Positions 17,287-25,999 of a stretch of DNA of 32,715 nt are shown piece by piece. Position numbers and translations under genes: made by a program. The stretch spans positions 1 to 32,715 of the forward strand of contig CANHVO010000029.1 of the NCBI GenBank assembly GCA_947463915.1, written 5' to 3'. Position 1 is the stretch's first letter, and every line of letters begins with the position of its first letter. The stretch comes from Planctomycetaceae bacterium. GTDB taxonomy: Bacteria; Planctomycetota; Planctomycetia; Pirellulales; Pirellulaceae. The notes beneath the pieces were generated by a model. The model was given only the letters and a program-made list of their open reading frames with translations. It ran no database searches and was not told the origin of the DNA.

Positions 17287-17844
17287 TTACTTTTCATTCA
17301 CCTTGAATGTAATGAGAACATCGCTCCGGAACCCCAGGTCTTGTGTCCCCTGTCCGGCGTTGAAGTTAAAGATAGCGGTCCGCATTCCGGAATCGCGGCT
17401 CTTTATTTTTAGGGTGCGGAGTTCGTCTCGTTTACCCGTGAGTGCGCCATCGGGGGCAAGTTCGATCTGCAGCCATCGATCCCGCGATGTGTCATCGGCA
17501 TTTTGCATGACTTGCTCCGACTCAATTTTCAAGAGAGCTGTGATTCCCGCAGCGTTGTCAATGTCGATCAAAAAATCTTTCCAGACGCCTTGCTGAAGTT
17601 CCATCGCGATATCTTCAGAGACAGCCTTAACTCTCGATTCTGGTGATATGCTTATCGTGATGAGACGCGGCGGCTTTGCTCGATTGGCTTCGCTTATTTG
17701 GGCCGTTTTTTGTTCGGTACCAGACTTTGGGTCTTGCACGGATGGCAGCCGCGGGTTGCAGCCCGCTGCGATGGAAACCAAGAGTATCGAGGCAGTTTGC
17801 AACACTCCGGAACTTCGCGATGAGCGACTATTCTGTGGCTTCAT
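17287..17844 (-). CDS. Lipoprotein related to the N-terminal domain of the adjacent metallohydrolase
   Basis: A 185-residue predicted lipoprotein; the lipobox is IAAGC with Cys 29. Residues about 84-170 align with residues about 124-216 of the upstream metallohydrolase: QGVWKDFLIDIDNAAGITA against ENGWRAMLVKVINRAGVQS, RWLQIELAPDG against RWLVLSMYDG, and FNFNAG against LEFNAG. It therefore looks like a free-standing copy of that domain. ATG at 17844 overlaps the end of the metallohydrolase gene by 17 nt, so the genes are coupled. Function unknown; a partner or targeting role for the metallohydrolase is inference. Confidence 0.75.
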   Translation of the reverse strand: MKPQNSRSSRSSGVLQTASILLVSIAAGCNPRLPSVQDPKSGTEQKTAQISEANRAKPPRLITISISPESRVKAVSEDIAMELQQGVWKDFLIDIDNAAGITALLKIESEQVMQNADDTSRDRWLQIELAPDGALTGKRDELRTLKIKSRDSGMRTAIFNFNAGQGTQDLGFRSDVLITFKVNEK

Positions 17845-20434
17845 TGAGAATTCTCTGGTAGGTTTTTCTCGCATGTTCGTAATCCAGACGAGCCTGCGGT
17901 TGCTCGTCAGCGGCATAGGTCTTCTGCTTCTCCAGCCAACATTGCTCCAAAGCAGCCAGACACCACTTGGCACTTGCTTTGACACGCACGGGTTTGTCGT
18001 TGACACGAATCCAAATTGGATTGGTGTGGGCCGAGGGGAAAATACGGGCTGCGACCCAGCTGCTTCGATCCAATTTGGGATTCTCAAAACGAAGATTCCG
18101 CTGCTTCCCGTCTGACTTGATCGTTTGAACAGCCACTGGAAATCCGTTCACGATGAGTTCCACTTCGACTTCGGTCGCACCGGGTTGATACGCCGAGGCT
18201 GTTAGCGAGAAAGAGCCATCCTCTTCTTTCTCGAAGTCCATCAAGTGACTTGTTCCGTCACTGACGTAGCTTTCGCCTCGGCGCAGTGCTTCGACCCAAC
18301 TGTCATAGTCCAAAACGCCATCTAGTTTGACGTAAACTCGCCCTATTCCCAAACGCTCACCCGTCATGCACGGGAAATCCGTTTCGCCGCTGGCAACGAC
18401 ATGCGTCCCGCAGTTTAGAACGTGATACCAAATGTTCCATTCGGATTCACGAGGCGTGTTCATGGTCGCGATAAAGTCAATCGCGGGTTGTTTCTTTCCG
18501 TCGGGGCCGTCAACGTCGTGAGTAACCTGCATGATAAACTCATTTGCCCCGATACCATCGAAAGCAGGAATATCAAAATTGGGTAAGCGATGCGGTCCGT
18601 CCTTTCCTTCCACGCGTCCAACACTGCGAGTTAGGCCTGCACCGCTATGCGCTGTTCCTGTGACGGCACCTTGCTGTTTGGCCCAGCGGAGAGTATTCAT
18701 CCCAAGCGTTGGCCAATGATGCTTAGAATTTCCACCTGCTGGGATTTGCTGACGCAGCTTGAGTAGATTTAGGTGCCCTGATTGGTGAGACCCAAATCCG
18801 CTGACTTCGATGTCGTAACGAAGAAGATACGGATAGCGACTCACGTCATCCGGCTTACCACTAAAGAATTGCTTTTGGAAATCGAAACAGGGCCCCCAAG
18901 TGAGACAGCAGCCAACCTTGACGTCTTCGCCCATGATGTGCCTAAGCATGTCTTTGGGCAATACACCCTGCATTGGATTCTCGTAGTGCAAACAACCCGC
19001 AGCATGGATATGGTGATCACCGCTCCAGTAGCCAAGCTTTGCAGTGTCGATCCATCGCTCGACTTGATAGTTCAGCGTTAAAGGTTCGCCACCAACATCC
19101 AGCGACTGCATTTGAACGATGCTTTCGGGGCCATGTGAACACTTCACAGTGTATTTACCTCGCGGCAATCGAATGCTCTCCCCTGACTCACGATAAATTT
19201 GCGTCTGAAAGAAGAAGTCAGGCGCTTGACGTTTGGATTGGTATGGGTAGACACGGCCTTGTTCGTCCCGAATTTCGAACGCACCCATACATGGTGAACC
19301 GTCCGCGTCGATGACTGCGAATTTGACCTCGGTGCTCGGGACCGTCCGAATATCGATATCAGCTCCATTCCAGGTGCCACTTTCGCCTGCTGCATACTCC
19401 AGGTTGACCCAATCAATGCGGAACTTGCCGGGGCCTTGCAAGGGATCGATACGAACACCTTTCAATTCCCCTTCCACCGGAAATTCGATAGCGTATTCAT
19501 GATCGCTACCCGGGTCGAGCTGGAATACCATTTGGCGACCGCCGTCAGGCTGTGGGATCTGCTCGGTCCACCAAAAGACTTGTCCAACTCCTGGCCCATC
19601 GGGACGCCCCCAAAATCGAAGTACCATCCGTCCGCCTCGGGCCGAAACGGGTGCAGAAAAGAAGGGATCATCTCCGGTTGCCTCGAGAAAGAGTGACTGA
19701 TTACGCACAACCATTTTCAAGTCGTTGAGTTCGCCCCATCCATCTGAATTTTTATCAAATCGCCATTGTCGAATGACGGATGAGTTTACGGACCCCGCGA
19801 TGCCGGCGTTGAACTCGAGTCGAGCCTTTCGGTTGCCGACGGTAGTAGAAGATAGCTGAACGATACGGTATTCCAACTCAAGCCCACTGAGATTGGCGTT
19901 GAGAGGCCGTCCGTCATACATCGATAGTACTAACCAGCGATTGTCGATGTCTTCTTTAGGACCGTGCGGGATGGGCCTCGCATTGGGACTATCCACACGT
20001 AATTTGGATTGGACCCCTGCTCGATTGATTACCTTCACCAGCATTGCGCGCCAGCCATTTTCCGCCAAATCAGCAGCTACACCAGGTGTTACTGTCGTCT
20101 CGCCATCGGTACGGATTTCAATGGATGCGATACACATGGGATCTAACATTCGTTGAATGCTGGCAGTGATTTTAGTATCACTCGGCTCATTCTTCAGCAA
20201 GCTAAGAGTATCGATTTGCTCCTTTGTGAAAGGTGCCCCAATCGACTGCATGGCTTCAGCCAGTCGGTTGGTAATTAGCAGCAACGGCTGGGCATCTACC
20301 CGCTCAACATTTGGCATTGCCCCATTCTGTGCCCATATAGCCGAATCAGTAAAGCCAATAGCGATACACATTGCGATTGGCAGGAAACAGCCAGAGACGT
20401 GCCGTATGCGGGTCTTAGGATTTGTTCGTGTCAT
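17828..20434 (-). CDS. CehA/McbA-type secreted metallohydrolase
   Basis: An 868-residue protein with a signal peptide (hydrophobic FLPIAMCIAIGF, then SAIWAQ). An N-terminal domain (about 100-220) is shared with the downstream lipoprotein; a jelly-roll-like middle (about 220-350) and a small beta domain follow. The C-terminal half is a PHP-like metal-dependent hydrolase: SGDHHIHAAGC at about 471-481, GTAHSGAG near 593-600, and ASGETDFPC at about 681-689 supply the probable metal ligands. CehA and McbA hydrolyse carbamates, but distant members have unknown substrates, so only metal-dependent hydrolysis outside the cytoplasm is proposed. ATG at 20434 fits the signal peptide. The gene heads a two-gene operon. 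Confidence 0.82.
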   Translation of the reverse strand: MTRTNPKTRIRHVSGCFLPIAMCIAIGFTDSAIWAQNGAMPNVERVDAQPLLLITNRLAEAMQSIGAPFTKEQIDTLSLLKNEPSDTKITASIQRMLDPMCIASIEIRTDGETTVTPGVAADLAENGWRAMLVKVINRAGVQSKLRVDSPNARPIPHGPKEDIDNRWLVLSMYDGRPLNANLSGLELEYRIVQLSSTTVGNRKARLEFNAGIAGSVNSSVIRQWRFDKNSDGWGELNDLKMVVRNQSLFLEATGDDPFFSAPVSARGGRMVLRFWGRPDGPGVGQVFWWTEQIPQPDGGRQMVFQLDPGSDHEYAIEFPVEGELKGVRIDPLQGPGKFRIDWVNLEYAAGESGTWNGADIDIRTVPSTEVKFAVIDADGSPCMGAFEIRDEQGRVYPYQSKRQAPDFFFQTQIYRESGESIRLPRGKYTVKCSHGPESIVQMQSLDVGGEPLTLNYQVERWIDTAKLGYWSGDHHIHAAGCLHYENPMQGVLPKDMLRHIMGEDVKVGCCLTWGPCFDFQKQFFSGKPDDVSRYPYLLRYDIEVSGFGSHQSGHLNLLKLRQQIPAGGNSKHHWPTLGMNTLRWAKQQGAVTGTAHSGAGLTRSVGRVEGKDGPHRLPNFDIPAFDGIGANEFIMQVTHDVDGPDGKKQPAIDFIATMNTPRESEWNIWYHVLNCGTHVVASGETDFPCMTGERLGIGRVYVKLDGVLDYDSWVEALRRGESYVSDGTSHLMDFEKEEDGSFSLTASAYQPGATEVEVELIVNGFPVAVQTIKSDGKQRNLRFENPKLDRSSWVAARIFPSAHTNPIWIRVNDKPVRVKASAKWCLAALEQCWLEKQKTYAADEQPQARLDYEHARKTYQRILNEATE

Positions 20435-20553
20435 GGCTGGGGCAATAGGATTGTGTTGAAGTGTGATTTGGCACTAACCATCTTACGGTTTGCTTGTTCT
20501 TCCGTGTGGAGAAATAGTGCGTTCCAGTCCGAAACGGGCCGATGTTTACTTCG

Positions 20554-20600
20554 CCTTCAGGCCGGGCTTGTCCCGGTGGAGGCAACAACTGACAGCTACA
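20554..20600. repeat. Outer REP-like repeat, left copy
   Basis: A 47-nt sequence that matches the reverse complement of 21555-21601 at 41 of 47 positions. Its core is the hairpin CCGGG-CTTGT-CCCGG, followed by TGGAGGCAACAA. Together with the right copy it brackets the transposase gene. Confidence 0.8.
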
Positions 20601-20623
20601 ACCAAGGCCCTCAATTTTCTCTC

Positions 20624-20664
20624 TCTCAGGCTCTCCGTCCGGCTTGTCCGGGCGGAAGCGGCGT
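20624..20664. repeat. Inner REP-like repeat, left copy
   Basis: A 41-nt sequence whose 37-nt core matches the reverse complement of the right inner copy (21481-21521) at 34 positions. The core CCGTCCGG...CCGGGCGG folds as a GC-rich hairpin. It ends three bases before the stop codon of the transposase gene. Confidence 0.8.
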
Positions 20665-20667
20665 TTC

Positions 20668-21462
20668 CTACGCCAAACAATGCCTAATAGCTCCGCGATC
20701 ATATTCGCCAAAAGTGCCCAAAGAAAAACTGGTTCGAAACATGGGCTTCATATCTTGCGTGAACACCATGTTGTTCATCAACACCAAAGCCACGTCCATC
20801 GGAGTATCCTCGATGCACGGCCCCACTAAGACATGAATGTGGTTCGACAATAGTCCGATCCTCGACAGCAGCCATCCATGTTTGTGGCAACTAGCAATGA
20901 TCGCTTGACGATACGCGGCCAGAACGCTTGGTCTCACATCATGCCAACCGGATTCCGACTCGATGACAACTTGCAGTGCATATAGGAACTCACCATGGCT
21001 ACTTCGACGAATATTAGTCAGGTCAACTTGCGCCTCATAGAATTGAAGCGATTCAAGAAGTTCTTGAACGCGATGGTCTGCCATGGGATGTCTAACCGGC
21101 TGCCTATCGATGTAGGCGTCCAAAACATCTGCTTTGGCGGAACCAATCGAGATGATTCGATAGTTGCGACGAAACAGAATGGGTTCCGTTGATCGCATCA
21201 GGTATTGCCAGCGACCCTTTATCAATCGAACAATCCCGGCGGGATTCAAATGAGGACGCGAACTGACAAAGAACTGGACGATGTTCGGTGGTTTATGATT
21301 GAATTCCAGGATCTTGATGTGATCTTTCGCAATTGCCTCGCGAAGGTGCTCGATGGAGCTTGCAGGAGATGTAAGGGATTCACGTCCGAAAACGCTGAGA
21401 GACCAATTGAGCTGGTACGCAGCGGACCAGTTATTGAATGTGTATCGAGGTTGTATTTGCAT
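20668..21462 (-). CDS. RAYT-like tandem HUH (Y1) transposase
   Basis: A 264-residue protein of the IS200/IS605-related Y1 transposase type, called RAYT when it accompanies REP sequences. It appears to have two copies of the fold. First copy: strand YQLNWSLSVFGRE, a position where HxH is expected but NIVQ is found (about 60-63), then IKGRWQYLMR and the tyrosine motif AYIDRQ (Tyr about 117). Second copy: strand FLYALQVVIES, then SNHIHVLVG with an intact HIH (about 208-210), ending GTFGEYD with no YxxxQ. One intact active site could form from Tyr of the first copy and HIH of the second. ATG at 21462 is chosen; an upstream TTG at 21501 lies inside the repeat. Both ends are flanked by repeat pairs. 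Confidence 0.82.
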   Translation of the reverse strand: MQIQPRYTFNNWSAAYQLNWSLSVFGRESLTSPASSIEHLREAIAKDHIKILEFNHKPPNIVQFFVSSRPHLNPAGIVRLIKGRWQYLMRSTEPILFRRNYRIISIGSAKADVLDAYIDRQPVRHPMADHRVQELLESLQFYEAQVDLTNIRRSSHGEFLYALQVVIESESGWHDVRPSVLAAYRQAIIASCHKHGWLLSRIGLLSNHIHVLVGPCIEDTPMDVALVLMNNMVFTQDMKPMFRTSFSLGTFGEYDRGAIRHCLA

Positions 21463-21480
21463 GATGCGTTTGGTAGAGCA

Positions 21481-21521
21481 ACGCAGCTTCCGCCCGGCCA
21501 AGCCGGACGGAGAGCTTAGGC
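21481..21521. repeat. Inner REP-like repeat, right copy
   Basis: Inverted counterpart of 20624-20664, with core CCGCCCGGCCAAGCCGGACGG. It lies 19 bases upstream of the transposase ATG, so it may also affect expression of that gene. Confidence 0.8.
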
Positions 21522-21554
21522 TTTTTGGTTAATAGTCATTTCAATCTAGCTCTT

Positions 21555-21601
21555 TGTAGCTGCCAATTGTTGCCTCCACCGGGACGAGCCCGGATGGAAG
21601 G
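21555..21601. repeat. Outer REP-like repeat, right copy
   Basis: Inverted counterpart of 20554-20600, with hairpin CCGGG-ACGAG-CCCGG at 21579-21593. GTAG occurs at 21556-21559 but is separated from the hairpin by about 20 bases. The repeat ends five bases before the stop of the DUF1501 gene, so the element sits tightly behind the operon. Confidence 0.8.
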
Positions 21602-21606
21602 CTCTT

Positions 21607-23007
21607 TCACGCGAGTATTTCCCGAACCACATTGCCATGCACATCCGTCAATCGATAGTCGCGGCCAGCATAGTTGTAGGTGAGCTTTTCGTGATGGATA
21701 CCCATTAGATGCAATATAGTGGCGTGCAGATCGTGCACGTGCACTATGTTCTCTACCGAATGCCAACCAAACTCATCCGTTGCCCCGTGGACCATTCCCC
21801 CTTTGACACCGCCACCCGCCATCCACATACTAAATCCAAAGGGATGATGCTCACGCCCAGTTCCGCTTTCCGCCGTTGGTGTACGTCCAAACTCGCCGCC
21901 CCAAATGACAAGTGTTTCATTCAGTAGCCCTCGCTGTTTCAGATCCGCGAGAAGACCCGCAATTGGCTGATCTGTGCTCTGACAATTATTGGGCAACTCT
22001 GTCGCCAAGTTCGAATGCTGGTCCCACAATTGACACGAAGAACGCTTCGAGGTTTGCGTGTGATAAACTTGGACCATTCGAACGCCTCTCTCAACAAGTC
22101 GTCGAGCCATCAAGCACTGCTTTCCAAAGTGATCCGTCACCGGCTCGTCGACTCCATACAATCTCTTAGTGGTTTCGGTTTCATTCGAAATATCAAAAGC
22201 TTCCGGAGCCTCGCGCTGCATTCGGAACGCCAACTCAAAGGATTCAAGCCTAGCGTTGAGTCGACTGTCGTCGGCACGTTGGGCTGCATGCGATTCATTC
22301 AAGTCTCGCAACCAATCGAGTTGCTGACGCTGAGCCGTTGCATTGAATCGCGTGTTGCCTAGGTTAGAAATCGGATTCTTGAGGTCGTTCACCAAAGTCC
22401 CTTGATACTCGCCGGGCAGAAAACTGCTACTCCACAGAGGTGCACCCTGGGCGGGCTGCGATGGTGAAATGACCACATAGCCCGGTAGGTTTTTGTTCTC
22501 GGAACCTAAGCCGTACAACAACCACGACCCCATCGACGGCCGCGAAAAAGCTTGTTCACCCGTGTTCATTTGCAAACACGCACCGTTGTGATTGATGTTA
22601 TCTGCGACCATAGAACGGATGAGACAAATATCATCAGCGTGCTTGGCTACGTTTGGGAATAACTCGCTGATCTCCATCCCGCATTGGCCATGCTTGGAAA
22701 ACTGGTAAGGCGATGCGAAAAGATTGCCAGTCTTGGTCCGCTCAAGTTTTGGCTTTTCAAACGGCAGCGGCTGTCCGTTCAATCGCGTAAGAGAAGGCTT
22801 CGGATCGAAAAGGTCCACGTGGGATGGACCGCCGGACATGAATAGAAAAATGACATTCTTGGCTTTGGCTGGAAAGTGTGGCGTTGGCTCACCGCCTGAG
22901 GACTCGGCGCACATGGCAGCTAGTCCGAGCATTCCGAACCCGCCCCCAAAACTGGCCAGAGCAGCTCTTCGATTGACTTTTCCTGCAAATGATTGATTAG
23001 TCAACAT
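21607..23007 (-). CDS. DUF1501 protein, Tat-type export signal
   Basis: A 466-residue DUF1501 protein. The N-terminus carries a twin-arginine-like signal (VNRRAALASFGGGFGMLGLAA). Sulfatase-like family segments follow: NVIFLFMSGGPSHVDLFDPKP, the GSWLLYGLGSENKNLPGYVV block, ARRLVERGVRMVQVY, WGGEFGRTPTAESGTGREHH and a C-terminal HDLHATILHLMGI...LTYNYAGRDYRLTDVHG. DUF1501 proteins belong to the alkaline phosphatase/sulfatase superfamily and pair with PSD1-type cytochrome proteins; a role in degrading sulfated or other polysaccharide is often suggested but not proven. ATG at 23007 overlaps the PSD1 stop by 11 nt; ATGs at 23019 and further are alternatives. Last gene of the four-gene operon. Confidence 0.9.
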   Translation of the reverse strand: MLTNQSFAGKVNRRAALASFGGGFGMLGLAAMCAESSGGEPTPHFPAKAKNVIFLFMSGGPSHVDLFDPKPSLTRLNGQPLPFEKPKLERTKTGNLFASPYQFSKHGQCGMEISELFPNVAKHADDICLIRSMVADNINHNGACLQMNTGEQAFSRPSMGSWLLYGLGSENKNLPGYVVISPSQPAQGAPLWSSSFLPGEYQGTLVNDLKNPISNLGNTRFNATAQRQQLDWLRDLNESHAAQRADDSRLNARLESFELAFRMQREAPEAFDISNETETTKRLYGVDEPVTDHFGKQCLMARRLVERGVRMVQVYHTQTSKRSSCQLWDQHSNLATELPNNCQSTDQPIAGLLADLKQRGLLNETLVIWGGEFGRTPTAESGTGREHHPFGFSMWMAGGGVKGGMVHGATDEFGWHSVENIVHVHDLHATILHLMGIHHEKLTYNYAGRDYRLTDVHGNVVREILA

Positions 23008-25999
23008 AGACAAACTCATTGGTGCAAAGGAGTACGTGACAAAGTGGTTCCCAGGATTCCACACGGTTCGAATTACCGACAGCAGCCGATACGAGTGATT
23101 GTTCGGATTGGGTCGGTGGTCGCTGAAACAATCGATCGGTCAGCCAAGCAAGTCGTTGATTCGCATCGCCGTCCTGTTTGACTACTAACGTAGCGAGTGT
23201 ATTGGCCTGAGTTAGAGCAAACGTGTTGTTGAGAAGCCACAAAGCTTGCGGGGCAACGACCGTATCGTTGCGTTTGTCGACGATTGTCTGCGCATTCGCT
23301 CCATCGAACACTGCAAGATAGCCTGACCGATCCGATCGCACGTTGGCGATGTAAAGGGTTCGGCGCGGGACCATGAGGTCGCGAACCGCCGGCCCGCCCC
23401 GAGTCTGATCCAAAGCCCCAGCTGCGAACAGCAGCGAGTCTCGCAACTCCTCCGCGCTTAGCCTCCGTCGTTGCTGATGCGATACGAGTGTGTTCTCGAT
23501 ATCAACCGTACCTGAATTAGACGCAGGTGCCGACGATCGCTTGTAAGCGTCCGAGTTCATCATCAATCGGTGCATCTGTTTGATGCTCCAGCCGCTATTG
23601 ATGAATTTGATCGCCAAGTAGTCCAGCAGTTCCGGGTGCGTGGGCCTTTCCCCCAACTTGCCAAAATTGTTAGGCGTTCGCACGAGGGCTTGGCCGAAAT
23701 GATGTTGCCAAATCCGATTGGCCATGACTCGAGCTGTTAGCGGGTTTTCTGGACGGGTCACCCATTTCGCAAGTTCAACTCGACCACTTCCATCAACGAT
23801 TTTTGGTTGTTCGTTGACAAGTAGGACCGGAAAGCCGCGTGGAACTTCATCGCTGAGTTGATCGTACTGGCCCCGTTTATGGATTCGGGCATTGTGATAT
23901 CCAGCATAGGCCGTATTTTTGATGCCACCGTCTGCCAATCCAACGGCTTTCGGCGCAACGATGATCTCGGCGGCCAATTGGGCACGCTCCGCTTCCAAGG
24001 TCCGGGCGGTTGCATCGTTTTGAATCAGTTGTTGCCCATCACCTTCGCACACCCACCAACCATCTTCACCCGGCTGACGTCCCGTCTTTAGCGATTCCCC
24101 TAAACTCCAATGTTGTGGCTCACTCGTACTTGAGCGTGTGATGACGAAAGTTGTCACAGTTGTATCGCAAGCATGACTGGCTTGAGGCTTGATAATCAAA
24201 CGCAACAATTCGCCTGGTGCAATCGAAAGGTCAGCCTTCACAAACTCCGCCGTGCCGCCGTTCGCTATGGAACCTGAGCCTAGTAGCGTGGTCCCGTGAC
24301 GAAGTTCCCATAAAACACCGTCACCACAATTCGGGTCGGTGTCTACCAGTTTTATATTTGCCTGGTAACTGCCATCCGCCGGGCTAACCCAAGCTGCCGT
24401 GATCGAAGAGATTGGGCCAGGATGAAGCGCAACACCGCTTGGTGGAATACTAAAGGTGAGGACCTTTAATTCCGCGTCAGTCTCATTGAGCATCAGCGAT
24501 GGTGTGTCAGCCCCTTGCTTGATTCGACGCATCAGCCCCTTGGTTCCGAGCGCGTTGTGCTCTACGGTTTGCAGCGGGCGAAGCATGGCTGTCAGGCTTG
24601 TATCGATTTCTGCGATTCGTTTTTGCTTTTGTGTTTGTTGTTCGCGGACGTGCGGTTCGGTCAAATCGATTCGCATCGGTTCTTCGCCCGCACCTGGCGG
24701 TGTAAAATTCTCGAGAATCCGACTGCTGTAAAAGAACCCCGCTAACGCATGGTAATCTCGAGCTGTGAAGGGATCGTATTTGTGGTCGTGGCAGCGAGCG
24801 CACGCCAACGTTATGCCGAGAAATGTACGACTCGTAAAGTCGACTTGGTCGTCTACGATGTCCGTGTGAATCTTTTTTTTGTCGGCATCCCCATTGCCCC
24901 ATTCGCCGATGGCATACGCTCCCGTTGCGATGATCTGCTCGACGTTAAATTGACCATCGCTTGTCCCAAGAATATCACCGGCAATCTGGTCCCTAACAAA
25001 TTGATCGTAGGGTTGATCGCGATTGAATGCGTTCACTACCCAATCTCGATACCGCCACGCTTCCGCAATATCTCCCGCGCCACCATAGGAGCGGGCGTCC
25101 CAGGAGTCGGCATAACGTGCGAGATCCAACCAATGTCGCCCCCAACGTTCGCCGTACTGCGGAGAAGCCAGCAGTCGCTCAATGACCTTCGGAAATGCAT
25201 CAGCACTTGTATCCGCAAGGAAAGCTGACATTTCGCCAGAAGTCGGAGGAAGCCCCGTCAAATCGTATGTAGCACGTCGCAACAGCGTTCGCTTGTCCGC
25301 TTCGGGTGATTTGCCGAGATTCGCAGTCGTTAATTTCGAATCAAGAAAACTGTCGATTGTTGCGGTATCGAAATCAGCCGGCTTTTGAATCGGTTGGAAT
25401 GCCCACCAGGTTTTCGCTTCTGCTTCGTCCATTCCGCCAACTTTTTGCCTCGCGATACGAGGGTCATGCGCCCCTCGACCGATCCAATCCTTCATCAACT
25501 GGATCTCTGCGTTCGGCAATTTGCCACCAGCATCGGAGGGTGGCATTTGCGGACCATCTTCTCCATACTCGATCGCTGCGATGATCAGGCTTTCCATCGG
25601 CTTGCCGGGAACGATCGCGGGCCCCGTGTCTCCCCCTTTCGTCCATCCTAGCTTTGTGTCCAACGCTAGTCCTCCGTGCATCTTGCCTTTGCCTGACGTA
25701 TGACAGCCTTCGCATCGTTGGACCAAAATAGGTCGTATCTTGGATTCAAAGTAGTCGTCATTCTCGTCAGCAAAAACACGTACGTTCCAACCACTTAGAA
25801 ATACTCCGATCGCCATCAGCAATGCTGACTTGGCAGCGGTATGCCTAAGGATTGATCGCAGGGGAGCTAAGGCGGACTGCGGGGAAAAACATACCGCGCT
25901 GAGTAGCTGGATTCGTAAAAATTCAGCTAGTTCGGAATTCTCACGAATTCCGCTACGGTATGTTTCATCCTGATGCTCGCCTAAGGATGCGATATTCAT
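22997..25999 (-). CDS. PSCyt1/DUF1549/DUF1553 (PSD1) protein with repeat-derived N-terminus
   Basis: A 1000-residue protein. Domain order: a heme-c-type segment CEGCH at 96-100 within PSCyt1 (followed by MHGGLALDT and PAIVPGKP), DUF1549/PSCyt2 at about 205-430 with CARCHDHK at 400-407, a beta-rich insert at about 490-630, and DUF1553/PSD1 at about 700-980. It is predicted to be exported. Unusually, the hydrophobic export signal (SALLMAIGVFLSGW) starts only at about residue 58; the codons before it include the palindromic repeat at 25866-25970. ATG at 25999 is supported by a 4-nt overlap with the preceding DUF1501 stop (ATGA) and by GAGAGG seven bases upstream. Function is probably oxidative or electron-transfer chemistry with its DUF1501 partner; unproven. 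Confidence 0.9.
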   Translation of the reverse strand: MNIASLGEHQDETYRSGIRENSELAEFLRIQLLSAVCFSPQSALAPLRSILRHTAAKSALLMAIGVFLSGWNVRVFADENDDYFESKIRPILVQRCEGCHTSGKGKMHGGLALDTKLGWTKGGDTGPAIVPGKPMESLIIAAIEYGEDGPQMPPSDAGGKLPNAEIQLMKDWIGRGAHDPRIARQKVGGMDEAEAKTWWAFQPIQKPADFDTATIDSFLDSKLTTANLGKSPEADKRTLLRRATYDLTGLPPTSGEMSAFLADTSADAFPKVIERLLASPQYGERWGRHWLDLARYADSWDARSYGGAGDIAEAWRYRDWVVNAFNRDQPYDQFVRDQIAGDILGTSDGQFNVEQIIATGAYAIGEWGNGDADKKKIHTDIVDDQVDFTSRTFLGITLACARCHDHKYDPFTARDYHALAGFFYSSRILENFTPPGAGEEPMRIDLTEPHVREQQTQKQKRIAEIDTSLTAMLRPLQTVEHNALGTKGLMRRIKQGADTPSLMLNETDAELKVLTFSIPPSGVALHPGPISSITAAWVSPADGSYQANIKLVDTDPNCGDGVLWELRHGTTLLGSGSIANGGTAEFVKADLSIAPGELLRLIIKPQASHACDTTVTTFVITRSSTSEPQHWSLGESLKTGRQPGEDGWWVCEGDGQQLIQNDATARTLEAERAQLAAEIIVAPKAVGLADGGIKNTAYAGYHNARIHKRGQYDQLSDEVPRGFPVLLVNEQPKIVDGSGRVELAKWVTRPENPLTARVMANRIWQHHFGQALVRTPNNFGKLGERPTHPELLDYLAIKFINSGWSIKQMHRLMMNSDAYKRSSAPASNSGTVDIENTLVSHQQRRRLSAEELRDSLLFAAGALDQTRGGPAVRDLMVPRRTLYIANVRSDRSGYLAVFDGANAQTIVDKRNDTVVAPQALWLLNNTFALTQANTLATLVVKQDGDANQRLAWLTDRLFQRPPTQSEQSLVSAAVGNSNRVESWEPLCHVLLCTNEFVYVD
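25866..25970. repeat. REP-like palindromic element inside a coding region
   Basis: GTAG (25903-25906) starts the left unit, CTAC (25953-25956) ends the inverted right unit; over 22 bases the two units match at 18 positions. Outer sequence also pairs (ACATACCG with CGGTATGT). The whole block resembles the repeat near 15000-15100, including the GGCGG..GCGGG left flank. GCCTAAGGAT occurs directly repeated at 25843-25852 and 25979-25988 around the element. Read on the minus strand it encodes about 30 residues of the PSD1 N-terminus, without a stop. Confidence 0.7.

Follow-up and report, generated by a model that had tools for sequence, protein, structure and literature searches.

Introduction

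In Y1 transposases, the classic example of identical subunits sharing an active site in trans, the switch model has rejoining depend on both sites and on a switch of the tyrosine helices between them. A solved dimer of this kind is that of TnpA from IS608.

According to the accessible text on that enzyme, the site is built in trans, with Tyr127 and Gln131 of one chain acting together with His64 and His66 of the other, and the tyrosine helix is exchanged between the subunits of Y1 dimers (PMC5934647). Other tyrosine transposases have been grouped by their motifs. In the available portions of Quentin et al. (2018), class 2 (RAYT / TnpAREP) is characterized by a YxxxNP motif and one Y1 core, and class 3 TnpA-Y1 is found mainly in planctomycetes, acidobacteria and proteobacteria. 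Class 3 proteins are described there with a median length of 178 aa, a Gln-type Y motif (Y----Q), one core of 155 aa holding both HUH and Tyr, and atypical flanking hairpins; five of the first ten members are without conserved HuH or Y motifs. The E. coli RAYT enzyme is presented, in the part of the report at hand, as an apparent monomer with a HuH-Y core (PMC6006769). For TIRYT proteins, encoded by TIRtrons, the accessible part of a survey of GTAG/CGTC repeats states that HUH and Tyr are both conserved (PMC3733652), and 20 of the 26 TIRYT proteins belong to subclass 2.1, part of the YxxxNP class, in the available text of Quentin et al. (2018).

Here we describe a planctomycete gene which, judged from its sequence, encodes two Y1 domains in tandem with complementary loss of their active-site motifs, and we compare it with these systems.

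Results

Two Y1 halves in one open reading frame

The window, by which we mean the whole 32,715-nt stretch of DNA analysed, is contig C29 of a host genome of 7.6 Mb in 618 contigs. The initial annotation, made from the letters alone, had read a tandem HUH transposase at 20668-21462, and these coordinates proved to be right; the gene is on the minus strand, with YIDRQ at residues 117-121, NIVQ at 60-63 and HIH at 208-210. The gene has the following features.

20668-21462, minus strand: tandem Y1 transposase gene, an open frame of 264 aa with ATG at 21462 and a TAG stop at 20668-20670
21049-21462, minus strand: half 1, residues 1-138, a Y1 domain with the Tyr helix kept and HUH lost (profile against PDB 2f4f, 2ec2 and 2a6m; Pfam Y1_Tnp)
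21274-21285, minus strand: NIVQ, residues 60-63, at the D-H-u-H place of half 1 (alignment to 2f4f and 2a6m; HxH in 0/69 relatives)
21100-21114, minus strand: YIDRQ, residues 117-121, with the predicted catalytic Tyr117 and metal-binding Gln121 (71/71 relatives; aligns with YIENQ of IS608 TnpA)
20671-21048, minus strand: half 2, residues 139-264, a Y1 domain with HUH that stops at the expected place of the Tyr helix (profile against PDB 2f4f, 2ec2 and 2xm3)
20833-20841, minus strand: HIH, residues 208-210, the HUH motif of half 2 (71/71 relatives)

The two copies of the Y1/HUH fold suspected in the initial annotation were confirmed by profile comparison, in which each half separately matched solved IS200/IS605 transposases. 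The half-1 profile matched 2f4f (E 7.6e-14), IS608 TnpA 2a6m (8e-13), 2xm3, an ISDra2 chain (5.4e-12), and also 2ec2; the half-2 profile, built like the first from 36 relatives, matched 2f4f (6.8e-20), 2a6m (3.9e-8) and also 2ec2 and 2xm3. The halves also aligned with each other in hhalign over 109 columns (E 5.1e-8, probability 94.8). When half 1 was aligned to 2f4f, the profile letters e-v-v-q stood opposite D-H-I-H (N60-I-V-Q63 in the window protein) and YIxxQ was matched.

On the window protein itself, Pfam Y1_Tnp recognized half 1 only (42 bits, cut-off 23), and the C-terminal half alone gave no Y1_Tnp match in Pfam at E up to 1. A PHROG transposase profile found one stretch in the window protein and two in the divergent relatives L036 and L107. 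The half-2 tyrosine place is Cys262 in the window protein, whose chain ends at residue 264. Structure predictions reached a mean pLDDT of 35.4 for the window protein alone and 40.2 together with L032, too poor for use.

Four invariant residues divided between the halves

The search for relatives took in 147 relative genomes, of which 24 had a match, 392 genomes drawn from the phylum (at least 12 with a match, 8 of these with single-domain Y1 only) and 241 genomes of the family (at least 48 with a match), the window's own genome being counted in each set. Whole-genome searches with the window protein covered genomes of the same phylum, and a search for type B relatives (see below) around G275 covered two genomes. 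From the fetched loci we retained 71 distinct open frames spanning profile positions 70-225; identical copies were dropped, and pieces of open frames that did not span these positions were left out, among them L002, L028, L049, L117, L120-L124, L145 and L146. Within the 71, L005 and L020 are without the C-terminal part, and L119 and L144 are without the HUH region of half 1. Five scans of viral contigs returned no relatives, nor did tblastn against phages and plasmids; a scan of genome contigs returned one named relative, in a Pirellula MAG.

Tyr117 and the HIH residues His208 and His210, which the initial annotation had singled out as the catalytic residues to follow, are unchanged in all 71 relatives, as is Gln121. 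When columns with residues in 68 or more rows are considered, Gly107 is the sole further invariant position. At the HUH columns of half 1, HxH is found in none of the 69 relatives with residues there, in agreement with the earlier proposal that this half has lost its HUH motif; the second His is replaced by Gln in 51 of the 59 type A relatives, and three carry a His in the second column only. Nine sequences do have HxH triplets in half 1, but away from the HUH columns. The complementary loss suggested from the window alone, namely Tyr-xxx-Gln without HUH in half 1 and HIH without YxxxQ in half 2, is therefore family-wide.

Tyr117 and His208 stand 90-92 residues apart in every one of the 59 type A relatives and 88-90 apart in the other 12. 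Values of dN/dS lay between 0.08 and 0.29 in both halves for 13 of 14 relative pairs, including 0.11-0.17 in the two pairs with the window gene, and dS was saturated in the fourteenth (L001-L006). Both halves are under purifying selection.

Three types and the origin of the tandem

The end of half 2 divides the relatives into type A (n=59, the window's own), type B (n=8) and type C (n=4). Among the 57 type A relatives with data, 19 stop short of the half-2 tyrosine place, YxxxQ at the half-2 site occurs in none, and L026 alone has a Tyr there, without Gln. Type B (L111, L036, L112-L116 and L119) has kept the half-2 helix, with Tyr in 8/8 and Trp in place of Gln in 8/8 (YxxxW). Type C has kept the start of the helix, with Tyr in one of four (L108) and Gln in none. 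The initial annotation had read half 2 as lacking YxxxQ and counted a conserved Tyr motif in this half of homologues as evidence against its reading. YxxxQ is absent from the half-2 site in 57 type A, eight type B and four type C relatives. A tyrosine at this place, which goes in part against that reading, is present in 8 of the 71 (type B, YxxxW), and a lone one in L026 and in L108. Because the tyrosine is kept in half 2 of all eight type B relatives, a second nucleophile is possible in this type.

A tree with an arbitrary root was built on 155 columns from both halves of 34 relatives out of the 71, with 12 single-domain Y1 sequences added. Half 1 formed one group (support 99/95), as did half 2 (99/96), and types A and B were separate groups within both. 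Since each half is one group and the two types are separate in both, the tandem joining probably happened once, long ago, before the types parted. The tree would be compatible alike with the doubling of one gene and with a fusion of two Y1 genes.

The window's own genome has 14 Y1_Tnp places (L050-L063), the window's included, and the set includes ordinary single-domain proteins with HUH and YxxxQ as well as YIDLNP proteins. One of these places, on contig C41 (L055, about 1200-1870), is a broken type B relative, in which half 2 (HVH, YxxxW) is in another frame than the beginning of half 1 and the Tyr part of half 1 is gone. Besides the window gene, this genome has two pieces of the family, which are only 32% and 42% identical.

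A two-gene form with split subunits was considered for L028 and L121-L124, whose frames seemed divided at or near the linker, and was rejected: stops, frame changes or an inserted stretch were seen there, and we regard these loci as broken copies. In L121, L123 and L124 the frame changes in the linker between the halves.

Inverted hairpins around the gene

The gene lies in an element of 1.05 kb (20553-21602) with outer and inner inverted repeats, each of which can form a short hairpin.

21554-21602, minus strand: outer inverted repeat on the gene-5' side, a REP-like hairpin with loop CTCGT, then GCAGCTAC
20553-20601, plus strand: outer inverted repeat on the gene-3' side, 49 nt, 88% complementary to its partner
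21480-21515, minus strand: inner inverted repeat on the gene-5' side, a hairpin with loop CTTGG
20630-20665, plus strand: inner inverted repeat on the gene-3' side, 36 nt, 94% complementary to its partner

Taken as complete single strands, the two ends of the element show no striking tendency to fold: 21 of 200 shuffles folded as well as or better than the gene-3' end (z -1.30), and one of 200 did so for the gene-5' end (z -2.63).

The flanks of many relatives follow the same plan with other stems, that is stem, loop CTYGY, stem, about 15 nt and CTA. With stems of at least 6 pairs, and with loop and CTA criteria chosen after looking at the flanks, the stretches up to 350 nt from the 71 genes (48,046 nt in all) contain 222 such hairpins, 168 of them in the inverted sense, and the more distant 62,482 nt contain 25. 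A hairpin of the expected sense is present on both sides at 33 of the 65 loci with at least 300 nt of flank on each side (27 of 53 in type A, 6 of 8 in type B, 0 of 4 in type C); such hairpins are absent from the flanks of all four type C relatives. Of 163 units, 104 have CTA at 28-30 nt from the start of the loop and 114 have it within 22-33 nt, a number for which shuffling gives a mean of 22.6 and a maximum of 34; units of the same locus are not independent of each other. This excess at a fixed distance beside the loop makes CTA a candidate cleavage site.

The element sits between two large minus-strand genes (17828-20434 and 21607-23064). Among seven close relatives of the first from the genus, L151-L157, one has the second gene beside it within the available flank: L156 alone has a DUF1501-like neighbour, with about 1.25 kb holding other open frames in between. 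No empty site was found among these relatives of the element-adjoining gene, six of the seven having been compared.

Hairpin units away from the gene

In G078, a genome with the gene, its own hairpin pattern at no more than one mismatch occurs in 41 units genome-wide, against 0 for the reversed pattern as control. The G078-specific pattern gave 0 hits in G532, a same-genus genome without the gene among the matches listed, and 0 in G006, likewise without the gene; in other gene-bearing genomes it gave 2 in G083, both at the gene, and 0 in G604, G661 and G533. Away from the gene, G078 holds 37 units at 18 places, 11 of which have two or more units, and at 10 of these 11 the plus units come first and the minus units follow, in the order seen around the gene. 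Where stems vary, both sides change together. Five places were read, and all are inverted pairs or clusters. At least one relative thus carries these units as inverted pairs resembling REPINs.

The outer-hairpin pattern of the window, at no more than two mismatches, has only two hits in its own genome, both at the gene, ten in G015 (four at the gene), three in G017 and none in the gene-bearing G022. Same-genus genomes without a gene match also gave hits at two mismatches, eight in G019 and one each in G005 and G021. Given these hits in genomes without the gene and their absence from G022, the tie between gene and hairpin is not strict. Five of the eight similar hairpins of G019 have a different loop (TTCAT or TTTAT). 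At the five gene-free places read in G015, one further hairpin was seen at three and none at two.

In the window's own genome, the sole other copy of the ends is a diverged, gene-free composite of about three hairpin units on contig C308 (L078, 1370-1610). This composite resembles an internally deleted derivative of the element.

Discussion

By analogy with IS608, we consider it likely that the window protein is an IS200/IS605-like Y1 transposase in which a homodimer has turned into a single chain with one composite site. Two Y1 domains would have been joined in tandem, probably once. Half 1 would then have lost the HUH metal site while retaining the helix at its C-terminal end, which carries the catalytic Tyr along with the Gln that binds the metal, and half 2 would have retained HUH and lost the Gln, plus the entire Tyr helix in most relatives. 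The half-1 helix would reach the HUH of half 2, giving one composite site per chain as opposed to two per dimer, and we infer that Tyr117 meets the HUH motif in space within one chain. If the halves pack like the subunits of IS608 TnpA, the second place would be without HUH and, in type A, also without a Tyr helix. The predicted binding targets of the protein are the REP-like hairpins on either side of its own gene, and we infer that the protein may cut single-stranded DNA at or near the CTA often present after each hairpin and may mobilise the hairpin units, moving or copying them often as small gene-free inverted pairs.

The same residues would be conserved if the sites were formed between chains, half 1 of each serving half 2 of the other with two composite sites as the outcome, and an exchange of the Tyr helix between subunits is what the accessible text describes for Y1 dimers (PMC5934647). 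However, the Tyr117-His208 spacing is almost constant (90-92 in 59/59 type A) and each half matches a Y1 domain, so that an internal pseudo-dimer is the simpler arrangement, and we regard sites between chains as unlikely. It is less probable still, in our judgement, that half 1 is only a DNA-binding and dimerising relic with Tyr117 and Gln121 kept for folding, the nucleophile being another residue of half 2. Candidates for such a residue exist, as all eight type B relatives have a half-2 Tyr, and Tyr254 of half 2 is a tyrosine in 54 of the 57 type A relatives with data. Yet position 254 is Phe in three type A relatives, and the 12 relatives of types B and C all have Leu, Ile or Ala there. The type B Tyr comes without Gln and has its like within type A in L026 only, and 19 of 57 type A chains end before the half-2 Tyr place, whereas none of the 71 relatives departs from the Tyr and Gln of half 1.

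Broken copies do occur in the family, through stops, shifts or insertions in L028, L121-L124 and on C41 of the window's own genome, as might be expected of a transposase in decay, in which two Y1 genes, fused or joined by read-through, were losing their motifs by drift. But 71 distinct relatives have a frame that is open across the two halves and retain all four residues, each half shows a dN/dS of 0.08-0.29 in 13 of 14 pairs, and the losses are complementary throughout. Decay is refuted at the level of the family, and we give it next to no credence as an explanation.

Returning to the single chain with one composite site, we are inclined, with somewhat less confidence than for the window protein itself, to see here a natural group of Y1 transposases, each a single chain with exactly one composite site, that spreads REPIN-like repeats in planctomycetes and has type B as its living intermediate. 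If this is true, single-stranded DNA would be cut and rejoined without the paired sites that the IS608 strand-exchange model needs, and type B would hold a second tyrosine beside the sole HUH site. With a single Tyr/Gln helix and a single HUH in each chain, such a conserved natural form would separate the parts of the active site genetically, so that two questions become testable: whether one composite site is enough for cleavage and for strand transfer, and whether an encounter of two chains is required. The REP-like repeats of planctomycetes would also gain a candidate enzyme. The consequence for the Y1 mechanism would be unusual, and the interpretation draws its support from sequence.

Among the titles and abstract openings surveyed, few of them from subscription journals, none dealt with a Y1 transposase that is tandem or pseudo-dimeric. 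As far as the available text tells, Quentin et al. (2018) restricted their analysis to proteins whose complete core bears both the HuH and the Y motif and set aside those longer than expected, and these selection rules may be why the tandem Y1 family was passed over.

Among described systems, the family resembles TnpA of IS200/IS605 (IS608, ISDra2; class 1) in the Y1 fold found by profile for each half, in HUH and YxxxQ, in carrying the residues of the predicted active site on two domains, and in the hairpins at the ends. Pfam Y1_Tnp matches 26/26 members of A1, and the NCBI IS200/IS605 equivalog model matches the same number at E up to 0.01, although the window protein scores 31.8 bits, below the cut-off of 55. 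Unlike those transposases, the family has two domains per chain with complementary loss and probably one composite site: HUH and YxxxQ do not occur within one domain, as all 71 relatives carry YxxxQ on half 1 and HUH on half 2. The ends of the element are inverted hairpin repeats, and the copy number is low, which also sets it apart from IS200/IS605.

With the REPtrons of RAYT / TnpAREP (class 2), the element shares a gene between inverted REP-like hairpins, a low copy number and dispersed gene-free hairpin pairs, clear in G078 with its 41 units and weak in the window's own genome. It differs from them in the motif, which is YxxxQ in 71/71 relatives and not YxxxNP. Class 3 TnpA-Y1, as the accessible text presents it, is similar in its planctomycete hosts, Gln-type Y motif and flanking hairpins; however, the Y---Q motif and tandem halves of the window family differ from that description, and the family is not a member of this class. 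Finally, the tyrosine transposase gene between terminal inverted repeats recalls TIRYT and the TIRtrons, but while HUH and Tyr are both conserved in the TIRYT proteins described in the available text, in the present family they are split between the two halves of one chain.
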